In this document: piece by piece, positions 23,021 to 59,612 of the stretch
How positions within the stretch are numbered: the stretch's first letter is position 1
Layout: every line of letters starts with the position of its first letter
Made by a program: the position numbers and the translations under genes
The notes under the pieces: generated by a model
Databases searched by the model: none
Told to the model about the DNA's origin: nothing
What the model saw: the letters and a program-made list of their open reading frames with translations, nothing else
Assembly (NCBI GenBank): GCA_040218145.1
Contig: JAVJQK010000144.1
Span: 1-59,612, forward strand
DNA: 59,612 nt
Reading direction: 5' to 3'
Source: Sandaracinaceae bacterium
GTDB taxonomy: Bacteria > Myxococcota_A > Polyangia > Polyangiales > Sandaracinaceae

Positions 23021-23497
23021 ATGAGCGAGAGCCTCCAGGACCGGTACGCGCCTCACAACGCGTGCTTCGGGTGCGGCCCGTCGAACGACAAGGGGCTGCG
23101 CATCAAGAGCATGGTCGAGGAGAACGAGGTCGAGGGCGACGAGGTGGTCGCGCGCTGGCGCCCGGAGGAGCACCACCAGGCGTTCCCGGGCGTGCTCAAC
23201 GGCGGCATCTGCGGCGCGCTGCTCGACTGCCACTCGAACTGGACGGCGGCCTACGCGCTGATGAAGGCGGCGGGAGACGAGAGCCCGCCGTGCACGGTGA
23301 CGGCGGACTTCCACGTGACCCTGAAGCGGCCGACGCCGATGGACGTCGAGCTGCTCCTGCGCGCGCGCGCGACGGAAGTGAAGGGACGGAGCGCGGTGAT
23401 CGAGGCGACGCTGGAGGCGAACGGGAAGGTCACCGCGACGTGCCGCGGGACGTTCGTCGCGGTGACCGAAGGACACCCCGCCTACCATCGCTGGTAG
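23021..23497 (+). CDS. PaaI-family hotdog thioesterase
   Basis: A 158-aa protein of the 4HBT/PaaI hotdog superfamily, expected to hydrolyse acyl-CoA thioesters in the cytoplasm. It begins with a CFGCGPSNDKGL motif common in this subgroup, followed by HHQAFPGVLNGGICGALLDC, the helix and Gly/Asn/Asp region of the active site, and a final strand pair. Length matches the family. The natural substrate cannot be read from the sequence. Confidence 0.9.
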   Translation: MSESLQDRYAPHNACFGCGPSNDKGLRIKSMVEENEVEGDEVVARWRPEEHHQAFPGVLNGGICGALLDCHSNWTAAYALMKAAGDESPPCTVTADFHVTLKRPTPMDVELLLRARATEVKGRSAVIEATLEANGKVTATCRGTFVAVTEGHPAYHRW

Positions 23498-52978: not shown

Positions 52979-55054
52979 TCAGCGCCGCCCGCCGAGCGCG
53001 TCGAGTGACTCCCAGTCTCGCTGGGGGTCGCTCGCAGGGGCGATCGAGACGCGGAGGCACGCCCGCGACGGTCCGATGAGCACGTGCTGTCCGTCGACCG
53101 CGCCGTGCGCGATGCGCTCCGCGTGCAGACGCTTGAGCGCCCCGCGCACCTGCGCGATCGCGCGCTCGCGTGAGCCCCGACCGAGCTCGCCCAGAGGCCT
53201 CCCGCTCGGGTGCTCGAGGACCACGAGGCCGCGCTCGTCGTCGATGGCGTAGATCGCCTGGAGGAAGGGGCCGTCAGCGCGCGCGAACCCCCGGAGGCGC
53301 GCCCGGGTCTCCGCGTCCGCGTCGAGCAGCTCCACCTTGCGATCGAGCAGCTCGTCCCGCGCGATGCGCACTCCGTCGGGCCCCTCACCGATCACCGCGT
53401 ATCGCTCGGTCTCGAGCACGGGCCCGGGCAGCTCCGCCGGCGCCTCGCTCACGGGCGCGCTCGCGGGCGGCGCCTCCACCGTGTCCCACGGGAGCGCGCG
53501 CAGGAGATCCATCACCTCGTTGGCGGAGTCGGGCCGATCGCGGGTCTGCTTCTGGAGCAGCGCGCCGATGAGCGGGTCGAAGTCCTCCCCGAGCCACGGC
53601 GCCACCTCGCTCGGCCGTGGCGGCTCCATCTCGAGGTGCTGGGCGACGAAGTCGGGCCCGGGGAACGGGAGCCGTCCGGTCAGGCAGCGGAAGAGGATGA
53701 TGCCGAAGGCGTAGAGGTCGGTCGACGCGTCCGGGCGGCGGCTGCCTGTGATCTGCTCGGGCGACATGTAGGCGAGCGTGCCGACGAGCGCGCCCGTCAA
53801 GGTGGCCCCGAGGTCGGTCAGGTGCGCGACGCCGAAGTCGCCGAGCTTCACGTCGCCGCCCTCGCCGAAGAAGACGTTGGCGGGCTTGATGTCGCGGTGC
53901 ACGACGCCGCGTCGATGCACGGCCTCGAGCGCGGCGAGCACCGCCCTGGCCATGAGCGCGGTGTGCGCCGGCGGATAGGCGAGCGGCGACTCGTCCGGCG
54001 CCGTGATGCGGTCGGCCAGGGTGCCGCCGGCCATGTGCTCCATGACGAGGAAGGGACCCTCGGGGTTGAACTCGAAGACCTTCACGACGTTGGGGTGCGA
54101 GATGCCCGCCGCGACGCGCGCCTCCCGGGCGAAGCGCACGAACGCGTCTCGACCGGCCGCGCCGCCTCCGACGTTGAGCACCTTCACCGCGACCTCGCGA
54201 TCGTGGAAGGCGTCGTGCGCCAGCATCACGCGCCCCGTCGCGCCCGCCCCGAGGGGGCGGAGCACGCGATAGCGCCCCGCCAGCAAGCGCGCGTCCTGGT
54301 CCTTGCCGACCAGCGCGAGCACGCCGCGACGGTCGCCGAACTCTCGCTCGAGGAAGTCAGGCACCGTGACCGGGAGATCCGGCTCGAGCTCGCGCTGCAA
54401 CACGCGGAGCGCGTCCAGCCGGCTGCCCGCGGCCTCGTCGAGCCCCATCGCGGCGAAGCACGCGATCATCAGCCGCAGCGCAGGTCGCTCGTAGCTCGGG
54501 TCCTCGGTCGCCTTCTGCAGCGCCCGCACCGCGTGATCCCAGCGACCGAACTGCGCGAGGATGCGCCCGAGCGCCAGCGCGGTCTCCGCGTCCTCCGGGT
54601 CCTCCTTGAGGCGCCGCTCGAAGAGCATGCCCGCGCGGCGGGGCTGGCCGAGCGCGAGCCGGCAGCGCGCGGCGTCGCGATACTCGCTGGCCGCTTCATA
54701 GAGCCCGGCCGCCGCCTCCGCCTCGCCCGCCGCCTCCCGCAGCCGCGCCGCGTCGAGGACCAGCCCCTTCGACTCGGCGTACACCGCCGCGCGCACCGCC
54801 TGCTCGGGGTGAGCCTCGAGCGCGCCCAGGATCCGCCCGCAGGCGTCGCGGTCCTGCGCCGAGAGCGCATGGCGATAGGCCTGCGCGAGGAGCCCGCTCT
54901 GCTCGGCGATCGCGATGGCCTCGTCCCACTTCCAGACGGCCGCGTAGAGCTCCGCCGCGCGCCCCGGCTCCTCGTGCGCCATGAGGAGATCCGCCGCCTC
55001 CTGGTGCCGCCCCTCCTTCACGAGGGCTTCCACGCGCGAGTCGATGTCACTCAC
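52979..55054 (-). CDS. TPR-Ser/Thr kinase-pseudokinase
   Basis: A 691-aa cytoplasmic protein. Residues ~1-240 are TPR-like helices (EALVKEGRHQEAADLLMAHE). A complete kinase domain follows (~260-520): GAGATGRVM, VAVKVLN, HRDIKPANVF, DFGVAHL and YMSPEQ. The last ~145 residues look like a second, degenerate kinase lobe: GEGPDGVRIARDELLDRKVE at the start and ERIAHGAVDGQHVLIG where HRDxKPxN should be, so the catalytic Asp is lost. GTG 55054 begins the first TPR; the longer frame runs into repeat DNA. No membrane helix is seen. Confidence 0.9.
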   Translation of the reverse strand: MSDIDSRVEALVKEGRHQEAADLLMAHEEPGRAAELYAAVWKWDEAIAIAEQSGLLAQAYRHALSAQDRDACGRILGALEAHPEQAVRAAVYAESKGLVLDAARLREAAGEAEAAAGLYEAASEYRDAARCRLALGQPRRAGMLFERRLKEDPEDAETALALGRILAQFGRWDHAVRALQKATEDPSYERPALRLMIACFAAMGLDEAAGSRLDALRVLQRELEPDLPVTVPDFLEREFGDRRGVLALVGKDQDARLLAGRYRVLRPLGAGATGRVMLAHDAFHDREVAVKVLNVGGGAAGRDAFVRFAREARVAAGISHPNVVKVFEFNPEGPFLVMEHMAGGTLADRITAPDESPLAYPPAHTALMARAVLAALEAVHRRGVVHRDIKPANVFFGEGGDVKLGDFGVAHLTDLGATLTGALVGTLAYMSPEQITGSRRPDASTDLYAFGIILFRCLTGRLPFPGPDFVAQHLEMEPPRPSEVAPWLGEDFDPLIGALLQKQTRDRPDSANEVMDLLRALPWDTVEAPPASAPVSEAPAELPGPVLETERYAVIGEGPDGVRIARDELLDRKVELLDADAETRARLRGFARADGPFLQAIYAIDDERGLVVLEHPSGRPLGELGRGSRERAIAQVRGALKRLHAERIAHGAVDGQHVLIGPSRACLRVSIAPASDPQRDWESLDALGGRR

Positions 55055-55069
55055 GCCCGCGAGCCTAGC

Positions 55070-55224
55070 AGTCCGTTGAAGAACCTCGCTCCTCGTCTCT
55101 CGGGCGGGACGACCCGTCTCTCGGCCCGTGTCTCCTCGAAAATGCTGAAGCATTTCCTCGTCGCCCCGCCTAGAACCGGGCCGTCGCGCTCCGAGATCCT
55201 TCGGGCTCGGTACTTCAACGGCCT
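55070..55224. repeat. Palindromic element with 16-base ends
   Basis: The end AGTCCGTTGAAGAACC (55070-55085) is an inverted copy of 55209-55224 with two mismatches. Inside, GGGCGGGACGA (55112-55122) can pair with 55158-55170, and AAATGCT-GA-AGCATTT (55140-55155) is a perfect hairpin. It resembles a MITE; no transposase gene is nearby. Confidence 0.75.
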
Positions 55225-55236
55225 GCGAGAGTCGAA

Positions 55237-55373
55237 CCGCTTACCGGACCGAGCTTGCCGTTTCCTGCGGTTTCTGGGCAAGGCGCGACGAGGGAGCGTG
55301 CTCTCAGCACGTGACCGAGGAAGCAACGCAGCCCAGGAATCGCAGGAAACGGCAGGCGACGGGAGGTAAGCGG
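55237..55373. repeat. 137-bp palindromic element, copy 1
   Basis: It begins CCGCTTACC and ends GGTAAGCGG. The ~43-base arms are inverted copies with a run of perfect pairing (TGCCGTTTCCTGCG with CGCAGGAAACGGCA), and a GCGTGCT-CTC-AGCACGT hairpin lies in the middle. The second copy at 59473-59609 has the same length and only seven differences. Confidence 0.92.
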
Positions 55374-55439
55374 ATCGCCTCTCTAGCGCGTGCGGCGCCT
55401 CCTGGTGATCGCTGTCGTGTCCTCCACTACCCTCCCGGC

Positions 55440-56801
55440 GTGACCTCGCTCTTCCCCGGACCGCGTGGCCTCTTCGGCCTGCGCAACCTCGCGCGCTTCG
55501 TGCGCGACCAGCTCGGCTTCCTGCGGGAGATGACCGACGTGCACGGCGACGTGGTGGAGCTGCGCATGCTCGGCCGGCCGTGGATCCTCCTGAACCACCC
55601 GGACGACATCGAGCAGGTGCTCGTGCGGGAGCACGCCAAGCTGGCGCGCGACGACTACGCCGACATCCTCAAGCGCGCGCTGGGCGAAGGGCTGCTCACC
55701 TCGGACGGCGCCCTCTGGAAGAAGCAGCGCCGCCTGGCCGCGCGCGCCTTCACGCCCAAGCGCATCCGCGGCTACGGCGACCGCATGGTGGACGTGACGG
55801 CACAGAGCGTGGCGCGCTGGCGCGACGGCGACGCCATCGATCTGCACGCGGAGATGAGCCGCGTGACGATGGAGGTCGTGGCGGACGCGCTCTTCGGCGT
55901 GGGCGTCGGTCCCAGCGACGTGGACACCGTCCGCGGCTCCATGGAGGAGATCAACGCCTTCTTCGCGAACAGCCCCGAGGCGCTGCTCCGGCTCCCGCCG
56001 AGCGTGCCGACGCCGCGCAACCGGCGCATGAACGCGGCCATCGCGGCCATCGACGCGCTGCTCTTCCGCATCATCGAGGAGCGTCGACGGGACCCGGAGG
56101 AGCGCGACGATCTGCTCGGCGCGCTCCTGGCCGCGCGCGACGACGACGGGAGCGCGATGGACGACGCGCAGCTCCGCGACGAGTGCGTCACGCTCTTCCT
56201 CGCGGGGCACGAGACCACCGCGCTGGCCCTCGCCCACACGTTCTTCCTGCTCAGCCGCCACCCCGCGGTCGCCCGGCGCATGCAGGCGGAGATCGACGGC
56301 GTGCTCGGCGAGCGGCTCCCCCGGAGCGACGACGCGAAGGCGCTGCCCTACACGCGCCAGGTGCTCGAAGAGGCGATGCGGCTCTACCCGCCGGCGTGGA
56401 TCACGGGCCGCGCGGTCGCCGAGCCGTTCGAGCTCCGCGGCCGCACGCTGCCCGCCGGGGCGCAGCTCGTCGTGAGCCAGTGGATCGTGCATCGCGATCC
56501 GCGCTGGTTCGAGGATCCGGAGGGCTTCGACCCGGGTCGCTTCGCGCCAGAGCGCGCGAAGGACCGCCCGCGCTTCGCCTACTTCCCCTTCGGCGGCGGG
56601 CCGCGCGTCTGCATCGGCAACCACTTCGCCATGCTCGAGGCGATCCTCCTGACCGCGACCATCGCGCAGCGCTTCCGCCTCGATCTCCTGCCGGGCGAGC
56701 GCCTCGAGTTCGACCCCTCCGTCACGCTGCGCCCCAAACGCCACGTTCGCGCCCGCCTCGTCGCGCGCCAGAGCGCCGCCCTCCCCGAGGCGGCCGAGTA
56801 G
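55440..56801 (+). CDS. Cytochrome P450
   Basis: A 453-aa soluble monooxygenase. The I-helix reads FLAGHETTALALAH, the ExxR motif is LEEAMRLYPPAW, and the heme loop is FPFGGGPRVCIGNHFAMLE with the Cys ligand. The general look is that of the CYP102-reductase-free, CYP4/CYP110-like bacterial group that often uses fatty acids or terpenoids. No ferredoxin or biosynthetic genes are adjacent, so redox partner and substrate are unknown. GTG 55440 fits the start of the fold; longer frames begin in repeat DNA. Confidence 0.95.
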   Translation: MTSLFPGPRGLFGLRNLARFVRDQLGFLREMTDVHGDVVELRMLGRPWILLNHPDDIEQVLVREHAKLARDDYADILKRALGEGLLTSDGALWKKQRRLAARAFTPKRIRGYGDRMVDVTAQSVARWRDGDAIDLHAEMSRVTMEVVADALFGVGVGPSDVDTVRGSMEEINAFFANSPEALLRLPPSVPTPRNRRMNAAIAAIDALLFRIIEERRRDPEERDDLLGALLAARDDDGSAMDDAQLRDECVTLFLAGHETTALALAHTFFLLSRHPAVARRMQAEIDGVLGERLPRSDDAKALPYTRQVLEEAMRLYPPAWITGRAVAEPFELRGRTLPAGAQLVVSQWIVHRDPRWFEDPEGFDPGRFAPERAKDRPRFAYFPFGGGPRVCIGNHFAMLEAILLTATIAQRFRLDLLPGERLEFDPSVTLRPKRHVRARLVARQSAALPEAAE

Positions 56802-56859
56802 CGCCTATCCCAGGCATAGCCAGGCATTATTGGTTCAGCGACCGAGCATGCCTGAGACT

Positions 56860-57516
56860 ATGGACATGAAGAACACCACGCTCGCTTCGCTCCTGATGCT
56901 CCTCGGCGCCTGCACGAGCTCACACGGGGGCGCCGACGCCGACACGATGGTCTCCGACGCGGGCGCCGAGCCCGACGCGGCGCCGAGCCCACTCTGCATG
57001 GAGGTCTGTGACAGCCGCGGAGGAGACACGGGCCACTGCGAGCTCCCCGACTGCGACGCGCGCTGCGCGGAGATCGGCCCGACCGTCTTCGACGCCTTCA
57101 CCGAGTGCGTCGAAGAAGACCCGCTGTGCTTCAGCACGCTGGAGGACTGCCTCTACGATCGCCAGTACCCCGAGCCGGTGCCCACGCCGACGACGGTGCG
57201 AGGCAGCGGGCTCGACGCGTACGACGGCCTCTTCGTGCATGTCTCCTTGCAGTGGGACCGCGAGACGCTGCGAGAGGCCCAGGTCATCGTCGGCGGCGCC
57301 TTCTCGATCGAGCACGCGCCTCCGATGCGCGGCTCTGCGCGCCCGCGCGCGCTCGTGTTCATCGACGTCGACGGCGACGAGAGCTGCACGCCGGGCACCG
57401 ACGTGACCGCGTACGTGGAGATCGAACGGAGCGGCACCTACGAGCGGCCGTCGTTCGAGGGGCACCTCGACGGAGAGTCCGAGAGGCCCGCGGACTTCAT
57501 CTGCCCCGAGGTCTGA
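56860..57516 (+). CDS. Cys-containing lipoprotein (~218 aa)
   Basis: A signal peptide with lipobox LMLLGAC is followed by an acidic linker. Residues ~45-110 are Cys-rich (LCMEVCDSRGGDTGHCELPD, CDARCAEIG), then comes a beta domain with FIDVDGDESCTPGTD, a Ca-binding-like loop. Several in-frame starts (56848, 56860, 56866) are possible; none has a clear ribosome-binding site. Family not recognised. Confidence 0.78.
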   Translation: MDMKNTTLASLLMLLGACTSSHGGADADTMVSDAGAEPDAAPSPLCMEVCDSRGGDTGHCELPDCDARCAEIGPTVFDAFTECVEEDPLCFSTLEDCLYDRQYPEPVPTPTTVRGSGLDAYDGLFVHVSLQWDRETLREAQVIVGGAFSIEHAPPMRGSARPRALVFIDVDGDESCTPGTDVTAYVEIERSGTYERPSFEGHLDGESERPADFICPEV

Positions 57517-58143
57517 GCGCGCCGCCGTTCGCGGCGCAGGCGTCGGCCGCATTCGAGATCCGCTCGTGCGACCGATCGAGATCCAGCCCGGTAGGGCGCC
57601 CGAGACCCCGTACGACTTCGCGTCCTCTCCGAGACCGCTTCGGCTTCCGAGTCCGCGTCCGAGTCCGAGGCCGAGTCCGAGGCCGAGTCCGAGTCCGAGT
57701 CCGAGTCCGAGTCCGAGGCCGAGGCCGAGGCCGAGTCCGAGTCCGAGTCCGCACCCGCTTCCGCTTCCGCTTCCGCTTCCGCTTCCGCTTCCGCTGCCGC
57801 TTCCGCTTCCGCTTCCGCACCCGCTTCCGCACCCGCACCCGCACCCGCACCCGCACCCGCACCCGCACCCGCTGCCGCTGCCGCTGCCGCTGCCGCTGCC
57901 GCTTCCGCACCCGCTTCCGCGCCCGAGTTCGCACCCGCGTTCGCGTCCGCATCCGCAGCCGAGTCCGCTGCCGCGGCGCTTCCAGTCGCCGCGTCCGAGT
58001 CCGCGTCCAGGTCGGCTCCCGCGCACGCTTCCGGGTCCGCGGCGGCTGCCGCGCCCGATCTGGCCGCACTCACTCGGCGGCGGGCGCTGCGGTACTCGCG
58101 ATCTCGGCTACGCGATCGCGGCGGGCTGCCGTTCCCCTCGGGA
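57517..58143. repeat. Hexanucleotide low-complexity tract upstream of a kinase
   Basis: From about 57640 to 57950 the DNA is made of GAGTCC, GAGGCC, GCTTCC, GCACCC and GCTGCC hexamers, i.e. the opposite orientation of the tract at 1-455. The frame of the downstream kinase is open from 57595 and reads Glu/Ser, Ala/Ser, Ala/Pro dipeptides, but it has no ATG, GTG or TTG until 58144. Nothing else is seen in this region. Confidence 0.85.
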
Positions 58144-59319
58144 GTGCAGCTCTTCAGCTCCATCCCGCCGGTCCCGGCCCCTCTGTCCGTGCCGCCCGAG
58201 AGCGCAGGATCGCTGCCTCGGGGCTCGCTGCTCGACGAGACCTACCGGGTCCTGCGCCGCATCGGCGCGGGGGGCATGGGGGCCGTGTATCTCGTGGAGC
58301 ACGTCGCGCGCGGGAAGCGGCACGCGGCCAAGGTGGTGGCGCGCACGGGCGACGACGAGGGGGTCGTCCGGCTCGAGCGGGAGGCGCGGGCGCTGGAGCT
58401 GCTCGACCACCCCAACATCGTGCGCGCGGCGCACCTGGGGCAGACGCCAGACGGGCTGGTCTACATCGTGATGGAGCTGCTCGAGGGGGAAGACCTCGGG
58501 CAACGCCTCGCGAGGGCGCGCGCGAGCGGCGACCGTCTCTCCGACGACGAGGTGCGCGGGCTGGTCCCGCAGCTGTTGAGCGCCCTCGCGGCGGCGCACG
58601 CGGCCGGCATCGTCCACCGCGATCTCAAGCCCGACAACCTGTTCCTCGCGCGCGGCCCCGACGGTGATCCGCCGACCTTGAAGGTCGTCGACTTCGGCGT
58701 CTCGAAGCTCCGCTCGGAGCACCCGCTGACGCGGATCGGCCAGGTGCTCGGCACGCCCGTCTACACCGCGCCCGAGCAGTCGCGACAGAGCGCTCGCGTG
58801 GACCACCGGGCCGACATCTACTCGGTCGGAGTGCTCCTCTACGAGCTGCTCACGGGACGCGCCCCGTTCGTCGCGCCCAACCTCCAGCAGCTGATGATGA
58901 TGCACGCGTGCGACACGGCGACGCCGCTGCTCGAGCTGCGACCCGATCTGCCGCCCGCGGTGGCGAGCGTGATCGGGCGATGCCTGGAGAAGGCGCCCGA
59001 GGATCGCTTCGGCTCGGTGACGCAGCTCGCGGAGGCCTGGGAGTCGGCCTGGTTCGGGCGCAGCCTCGAGGAGCTGCCTCTCCCGAGACTCACGAGCCTC
59101 TCCCCCACCCCGAGACCTCGGCCCAGGCCCAGGCCCGCCCGCGCGAACGAGGGCGCGCCGAGCCCCCCGAGCTGGCTCGGACGCGTCGCGCTCGCGGGCG
59201 CGCTGCTCGTGGTCGCCGCGGTGACCTATGCGGTCGCACACCGCTATGTCGCCCTCTCTTCGGGGGACGTGCTTTCCCGGGACAACAGCCAGGCGATGCC
59301 GCTCACGTCTCGGCCCTGA
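58144..59319 (+). CDS. Membrane-anchored Ser/Thr protein kinase
   Basis: A 391-aa kinase if translated from GTG 58144. The domain at about 30-290 has GAGGMGAVY, AAKVV lysine, HRDLKPDNLF, DFGVSKL and YTAPEQ. A single membrane helix (ALAGALLVVAAVTYAVA) is followed by a very short outer tail. The start is uncertain: no ribosome-binding site is visible, GTG 58189 is also possible, and the frame stays open far upstream through the low-complexity tract. Neighbours give no clue to the target. Confidence 0.88.
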   Translation: MQLFSSIPPVPAPLSVPPESAGSLPRGSLLDETYRVLRRIGAGGMGAVYLVEHVARGKRHAAKVVARTGDDEGVVRLEREARALELLDHPNIVRAAHLGQTPDGLVYIVMELLEGEDLGQRLARARASGDRLSDDEVRGLVPQLLSALAAAHAAGIVHRDLKPDNLFLARGPDGDPPTLKVVDFGVSKLRSEHPLTRIGQVLGTPVYTAPEQSRQSARVDHRADIYSVGVLLYELLTGRAPFVAPNLQQLMMMHACDTATPLLELRPDLPPAVASVIGRCLEKAPEDRFGSVTQLAEAWESAWFGRSLEELPLPRLTSLSPTPRPRPRPRPARANEGAPSPPSWLGRVALAGALLVVAAVTYAVAHRYVALSSGDVLSRDNSQAMPLTSRP

Positions 59320-59336
59320 GCTGCCAGGCGCCGTCG

Positions 59337-59470
59337 TCAGCGCTCGCCGAGGTTCGCGCAGACCAGGTCGAAGAGGGCGCCGAGGGTCACGCCATCCCAC
59401 GTCTCGACCCGCACTCCGTGGCGCTCGACGAGGGCCACCGACAAGCTCTCGATCTCGAGCCAGAGAGTTG
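59337..59470 (-). pseudogene. 3' fragment of an acyl carrier protein gene
   Basis: The minus-strand frame ending at 59337 encodes LWLEIESLSVALVERHGVRV followed by TLGALFDLVCANLGER. This matches helices II-IV of an acyl carrier protein (DSL-x-x-x-E-L-x-x-A-L-E-E-R-F-G... then TLGDLFDLV). The DSL serine that carries phosphopantetheine falls exactly where the homology stops (LWL), and upstream lies palindromic element copy 2. The gene therefore looks cut by the element; any frame through the element (to 59546) is not ACP-like. Confidence 0.65.
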
Positions 59471-59472
59471 GA

Positions 59473-59609
59473 CCGCTTACCGGACCGAGCATGCCGTTTC
59501 CCGCGTTTTCTGGGCAAGGCGCGACGAGGGAGCGTGCTCTCAGCACGTGACCGAGGAAGCAACGCAGCCCAGGAATCGCGGGGGACGGCAGGCGACGGGA
59601 GGTAAGTGG
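59473..59609. repeat. 137-bp palindromic element, copy 2
   Basis: It starts CCGCTTACC and ends GGTAAGTGG. It differs from copy 1 at seven positions. In the arms, CCT...AGG became CCC...GGG (a compensatory change), two more changes produce G-T pairs, and the terminal C-to-T change also leaves a G-T pair. It lies directly against the truncated ACP fragment. Confidence 0.92.
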
Positions 59610-59612
59610 ATC

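Follow-up and report, generated by a model that had tools for sequence, protein, structure and literature searches.

The window analysed here, a stretch of 59,612 nucleotides from the genome of a Sandaracinaceae bacterium, carries the same long palindrome twice, and the question raised by this locus is what kind of entity such a palindrome represents and why its pairing is kept. The initial annotation had offered a non-autonomous mobile element, a structured RNA or an mRNA-processing element as candidates. The reading favoured here, with a probability of about 0.7, is that the palindrome is a 157-bp non-autonomous, TA-duplicating MITE, one family of an order-wide palindromic superfamily whose folded strand is most likely read by the machinery that spreads it.

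The palindromes of the window

A recount agrees with the initial annotation that the two copies (55237-55373 and 59473-59609) are equal in length and differ at exactly seven positions. One pair, T55266-A55344 in copy 1, is exchanged on both sides for C59502-G59580 in copy 2, and three further changes create G-T pairs in copy 2 (59499/59583, 59498/59584 and 59475/59607); this much of the earlier description is borne out. It had passed over the last two differences (55255 to 59491 and 55270 to 59506), which turn G.T pairs of copy 1 into unpaired bases in copy 2. The central GCGTGCT hairpin, said to be unchanged, is indeed identical in the two copies. Folding predicts a minimum free energy (MFE) of -110.7 kcal/mol for the palindrome against -66.9 +/- 4.25 for shuffled sequences (z -10.3). 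When the copies are aligned with their flanks, homology runs beyond 137 bp and the unit, here called family 1, proves to be 157 bp long in the frame C-TA-[GAGAGTTGAACC...GGATCAACTCTC]-TA-G, with terminal inverted repeats that extend from the ends through the arms and no gene inside. Copy 1 is flanked by a gene on the minus strand and one on the plus strand, the latter presumably cytochrome P450-like, as judged by eye.

Copy 1 directly adjoins a palindrome of a different family (family 3), which occurs in at least 40 places in this genome in the frame C-TA-[GCAGTCCGTTGAAG...CTTCAACGGCCTGC]-TA-G. The same junction without an intervening TA recurs at one other locus (L014), there with the other family 1 subfamily, and the two may move or recombine together.

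Table 1. Positions of the palindromic elements and their parts within the window.
Feature	Position	Strand	Remarks
CTAG at family 3 left end	55065..55068	.	TA flank (55066-55067), outer C and first G of the element
Family 3 palindromic MITE	55068..55226	-	Terminal inverted repeats GCAGTCCGTTGAAG / CTTCAACGGCCTGC; 159 bp here, 161 in most copies
Shared structured core in family 3 element	55115..55180	-	Model R1, E=0.005 in the window; model R2, E=1.5e-9, family 3 being part of R2's training set
Family 1 palindromic MITE, copy 1 (subfamily A)	55227..55383	+	Complete; adjoins family 3 element, no TA between
Shared structured core, copy 1	55265..55342	+	Models R1/R2 and covariation; family 1 is among the models' training input
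Parts of copy 1 core			Tandem-GA helix; AA bulge in the 5' arm and CAA bulge in the 3' arm; apical hairpin
Apical hairpin GCGTGCT-CTC-AGCACGT	55296..55312	+	Stem sequence covaries between families
TA at right end of copy 1	55384..55385	.	
Family 1 MITE, copy 2 (subfamily B)	59463..59612	+	Truncated by the contig end, lacking about 7 bp; CA flanks it on the left
Shared structured core, copy 2	59501..59578	+	Models R1/R2

Mobility and target sites

Placed matches to family 1 number 19 in the genome of this window (G000; 11.06 Mb in 148 contigs) and 13 in a second genome of the same species (G001), and the family is also present in the public MAG Sandaracinaceae bacterium MED-G138. Since the final 141 bp of copy 2 also form, without a difference, the ends of contigs C4 and C17, the sequence of this copy is an assembly node common to them, and three matches out of the 19 are thus not independent. 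Family 1 is mobile: for five of the copies in G001 the orthologous site in G000 is unoccupied. At two of these sites the unoccupied form has a single CA (L030) or TA (L031) and the filled form has the same dinucleotide on both sides with exact junctions. The other two of the four informative sites (L032, L033) read TC when unoccupied and are flanked by CA/CA or TG/CA when filled, so that a simple target duplication fails there. The dinucleotides flanking family 1 vary overall (TA, CA, GA, TG), with left equal to right in only about 7 of 15 copies.

Transposition with TA duplication is seen directly in a sister family (family 2), whose insertions in G000 occupy the TA at the right end of two truncated copies of family 1. 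The counterparts of both sites in G001 have a single TA, ctcTA[GGAC...GTCC]TAgc in the filled site corresponding to ctcTAgc in the unoccupied one, and this exact 2-bp TA duplication at two sites marks the elements as transposing TA-type MITEs. The proposal of a non-autonomous mobile element is therefore supported, by polymorphic unoccupied sites as well as by TA duplication. A TA or CTAG target with a 2-bp duplication is found for families 2 and 3 and for part of family 1; elements of another genome (G043) duplicate TNA instead, the left and right middle base (T, C or G) agreeing in 10 of 10 copies.

Several individual copies are rearranged. Four loci in G000 (L024-L027, on C138, C6, C128 and C126) are half elements that retain only the right arm of family 1, with the break no more than a few bases from the hairpin apex; they look like hairpins that were cut and then lost one arm, which would fit SbcCD-like processing. 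One family 1 copy (L019) combines a left arm of subfamily A with a right arm of subfamily B, a product of recombination between copies, and another in G001 (L034, C96) joins the left flank of the G000 copy on C50 to the right flank of the copy on C55, through either recombination between copies or misassembly. A further copy (L022, G000 C15:37257-37401) carries 14 extra bases in the region of the apical hairpin, apparently a partially duplicated segment (CACGTGACCTCTCA). For many G000 contigs (C4, C17, C144, C127, C70, C148 and others) the end lies at a fixed position within a family 1 or family 3 palindrome, and these repeats appear to set much of the fragmentation of the assembly.

Candidate mobilising machinery

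Lacking a gene, the element would have to be moved in trans, and a trans-acting enzyme is inferred. Insertion at TA, usually within CTAG, by cut-and-paste as in IS630/Tc1-mariner elements would be the best mechanical analogy, some families duplicating TNA. A preference for CTAG was reportedly described by Tenzen and Ohtsubo in 1991, to judge by their title. ISY100, a member of the IS630/Tc1-mariner group, inserts at TA with a 2-bp duplication (PMC2170065). Families 2 and 3 and part of family 1 resemble that group in their TA or CTAG target and 2-bp duplication, and one IS630 copy in G043 has the boundary C-TA-[G..C]-TA-G, the same rule as the elements. The elements differ from the group in that no IS630 with matching ends and no cognate IS was found in G000 or the other genomes checked. 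The single IS630 transposase of G000 (PF13358) has a right end unlike that of the elements, and no IS630 transposase was detected in six genomes with 4-19 cores each (G006, G053, G058, G054, G076 and G035); IS630 as a general mobiliser is thus not supported. No full-length IS sharing the family 1 ends was found in G000; three additional near-matches to the end pattern there proved to be a 38-bp remnant beside another palindrome (C120), a site near unrelated sequence (C127) and an apparent tRNA region (C105). A MITE does not strictly need a cognate IS, as the partner is frequently lost. Plasmids and phages contained no match to the elements. None of 35 pattern matches in IMG/VR was matched by model R2, and these are probably chance matches in coding sequence.

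Enzymes of the tyrosine type (Y1/RAYT) read conserved internal loops in strand-specific hairpins, and the palindromes might accordingly be seen as REP/REPIN-like elements moved by a transposase that recognises folded ssDNA hairpins. Like REP/REPIN elements and the CGTC-tagged palindromes, they are repeated, intergenic and palindromic, and their strand-specific hairpin has conserved internal loops. REP/REPIN and CGTC-tagged repeats, however, are built of 20-40 bp units tagged at one end with GTAG or CGTC, the CGTC repeats being without a known transposase (PMC3733652). The present elements measure 154-161 bp, typically about 157 bp, have terminal inverted repeats that reach both ends and a TA or TNA duplication, where REP/REPIN elements have no target duplication, and bear no GTAG tag at the palindrome, which makes such a mode of spread very improbable.

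A folded core shared by families with unrelated arms

A striking feature of these palindromes is that families 1, 2 and 3, together with a palindrome from another genus (G003), have unrelated arms and a common centre; at least seven families in G000 share this core while having unrelated arms. From the outside inwards the core consists of an outer stem, an AA bulge, a GGCG/CGCC segment, a CAA bulge, a helix in which C-G pairs alternate with tandem G.A steps, and a hairpin. The two strands of the C-G / tandem G.A helix are GACGACGAG and CGAGGAGGAG, and the cap hairpin covaries freely in sequence. A covariance model built from nine cores with families 2 and 3 excluded (R1) recovers family 2 at E of about 1e-6 and family 3 down to 6e-5. 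A second model (R2), with training sequences from this species and the one other genus only, was used to scan 96 genomes from 54 genera of the order and found cores in 27 genomes and 20 genera; at E<=0.01 they were absent from the remaining 69 genomes of the order. The elements inspected across genera are palindromic, about 155-160 bp long, and have ends specific to their family.

The collection of further copies that had been proposed at the outset shows that the core covaries across genera. In an alignment of 39 cores, of which three rows are doubtful (L188-L190), 18 of 19 pairs change on both sides, with a covariation score of 0.69 compared with 0.18 for shuffled and 0.03-0.09 for slid alignments. 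In several genera, lone C-G pairs between the G.A steps have become G-C through changes on both sides. Since each family is palindromic by itself, covariation between families alone is no proof of selection. Among the doubtful rows, two (L189 and L190) resemble coding sequence and the third (L188, G079 C98:87-142) is a different long palindrome, near-perfect over more than 200 bp, with an MFE of -179 kcal/mol and weak similarity to the core.

Strand-specific pairing in the arms

The initial annotation had argued that pairing is preserved in a way that suits a folded strand, and RNA rather than DNA. The first part holds, by virtue of the core covariation across genera and of mismatches in the arms; the two window copies alone are weaker evidence. 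The evidence from family 1 by itself is weak: in the long stem about 13 transition sites are wobble-compatible and 4 are pair-breaking, and one copy (L019) is a recombinant of two subfamilies. For the mismatch counts, every element was aligned with its reverse complement under a strand-neutral scoring scheme. Across 23 representative families, G.T mismatches in the arms, with the core excluded, outnumber A.C by 62 to 21 (p 7.5e-6), G.A outnumber C.T by 89 to 4, and G.G outnumber C.C by 29 to 13. By family, G.T exceeds A.C in 19 and falls below it in 5 of 30 families, some of them interrelated (sign test, p 0.007). Because the elements sit in both orientations beside genes, a mutational strand bias is unlikely to be the cause, and the bias of the arms despite both orientations indicates that one specific strand is selected in its folded, single-stranded form. 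The strand bearing GACGACGAG is accordingly the one conserved as a folded single strand, whether RNA or ssDNA. The second part of the claim does not follow, because folded ssDNA would favour the same G.T and G.A mismatches and the mismatch spectrum does not show an RNA.

These counts bear on the view that the palindromes are ordinary MITEs related by descent, in which the core is simply inherited, pairing is kept by DNA processes such as template switching between arms or gene conversion, and the folded strand has no function. The TA-MITE anatomy, the mobility and the recombinant copy with arms of two subfamilies are all in its favour. Symmetric DNA processes, however, predict G.T equal to A.C and G.A equal to C.T, while the arms show ratios of 3:1 and about 22:1 and the elements lie in both orientations, and the core loops are identical across genera although the arms are unrelated. 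This explanation is therefore already disfavoured and appears unlikely.

The preferred reading is that the folded single strand (GACGACGAG...CGAGGAGGAG) would be the form read by the spreading machinery, with the core as its putative recognition structure. The ends and the target duplication vary, and the core and the fold of one strand persist, so that the simplest interpretation is that the fold matters to the spread of the elements; a counter-point is that a DDE cut-and-paste reaction has no obvious need for a folded single strand. That the folded strand serves mobility is accordingly put forward tentatively, at somewhat below even odds.

Genomic location and orientation

The location of 100 elements was surveyed with a simple codon-score gene caller, and none lies inside a called gene. 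Gene 3' ends fall within 15 nt of an element end in 63 instances, often with overlap of the stop codon, which is expected because TA is rare outside stop codons. This arrangement is of interest for the alternative in which the plus strand is transcribed, from its own promoter or by read-through, to give a hairpin RNA that acts in the host (in RNase III processing or in protection of mRNA 3' ends, as has been described for Correia/NEMIS and ERIC), mobility serving only to spread it. Elements that abut stop codons, as many do, would lie in 3' UTRs; the G-U-compatible strand-specific pairing, the G.A steps and the A-rich bulges are typical of RNA; and known TA-MITEs behave in this manner (PMC10969869, PMC2229807). 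The elements nevertheless show no sense preference relative to genes, with 41 gene 3' ends facing the left (sense) side and 53 the right (antisense) side, and with 21 sense and 33 antisense among tandem arrangements (p 0.13). An antisense bias in a small first set (23 versus 8) was gone in the larger one (33 versus 21). No Rfam family was matched either: Rfam 15 gave no match in positions 54900-59612 of the window and one sub-threshold chance match among 16 other element loci. The mRNA-processing element suggested initially thus receives no support from orientation, and since a function in host mRNA should give an orientation preference, the transcript reading is ranked second, not far behind the mobility reading. 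That the folded strand serves the function of a transcript is a possibility to be held with some doubt, as is the wider RNA explanation.

Relation to known elements

Correia/NEMIS of Neisseria, ERIC, RUP of pneumococcus and YPAL are TA-duplicating bacterial MITEs that form a long stem-loop when transcribed (PMC2229807, PMC10969869). With these the present elements share a length of about 100-200 bp, absence of genes, intergenic residence, TA termini, a long stem-loop and many copies; they are short and multicopy, with terminal inverted repeats and TA duplication, as TA-type MITEs are. By their descriptions the known families each have family-specific terminal inverted repeats, whereas here many families with unrelated arms have one covarying core, and some duplicate TNA. 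TA-MITEs with long stem-loops are therefore already known, and what is apparently new, in that it could not be found described, is one folded core common to families with unrelated arms. The literature search, to which most subscription journals were closed, found nothing on a shared covarying core or strand-biased mismatches in such MITEs, nor on myxobacterial or Sandaracinus palindromes of this kind. In integron attC sites, too, the structure of a folded strand matters and stems vary in sequence. Unlike attC sites, the present elements form no arrays and carry no gene cassettes, the copies being scattered with TA duplication, and the ends GAGAGTTGAACC/GGATCAACTCTC do not fit what is taken here to be the attC R-box consensus.

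It is conceivable, though on balance doubtful, that the core constitutes a previously undescribed structured module, RNA or folded ssDNA, which a trans-acting factor reads to mobilise or maintain the elements while their ends are free to change; the class of element would then be defined by its folded centre and not by its terminal repeats. The classification of bacterial MITEs rests on their ends and on the IS that mobilises them, and here the ends vary and a structured centre is kept across an order. Should a factor indeed read the folded strand, it would represent a new mode of recognition for small elements; if the core acts as RNA, it would be an unlisted covarying RNA motif with tens of copies in each of several element-rich genomes. 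In both cases those genomes supply numerous natural variants as well as unoccupied sites.

Other sequences of the window

Weak matches to models R1 and R2 at 23065, 36879, 50163 and 4306 of the window are far weaker than those in Table 1, are without the full core and were judged to be chance. The window also contains long imperfect repeats of 6/12 bp, of the TCCGAG/TCCGCT type, at 57628-58059 and 1-258; the stretch at 57.6-58.1 kb lies just upstream of, or within the start of, a kinase-like gene.
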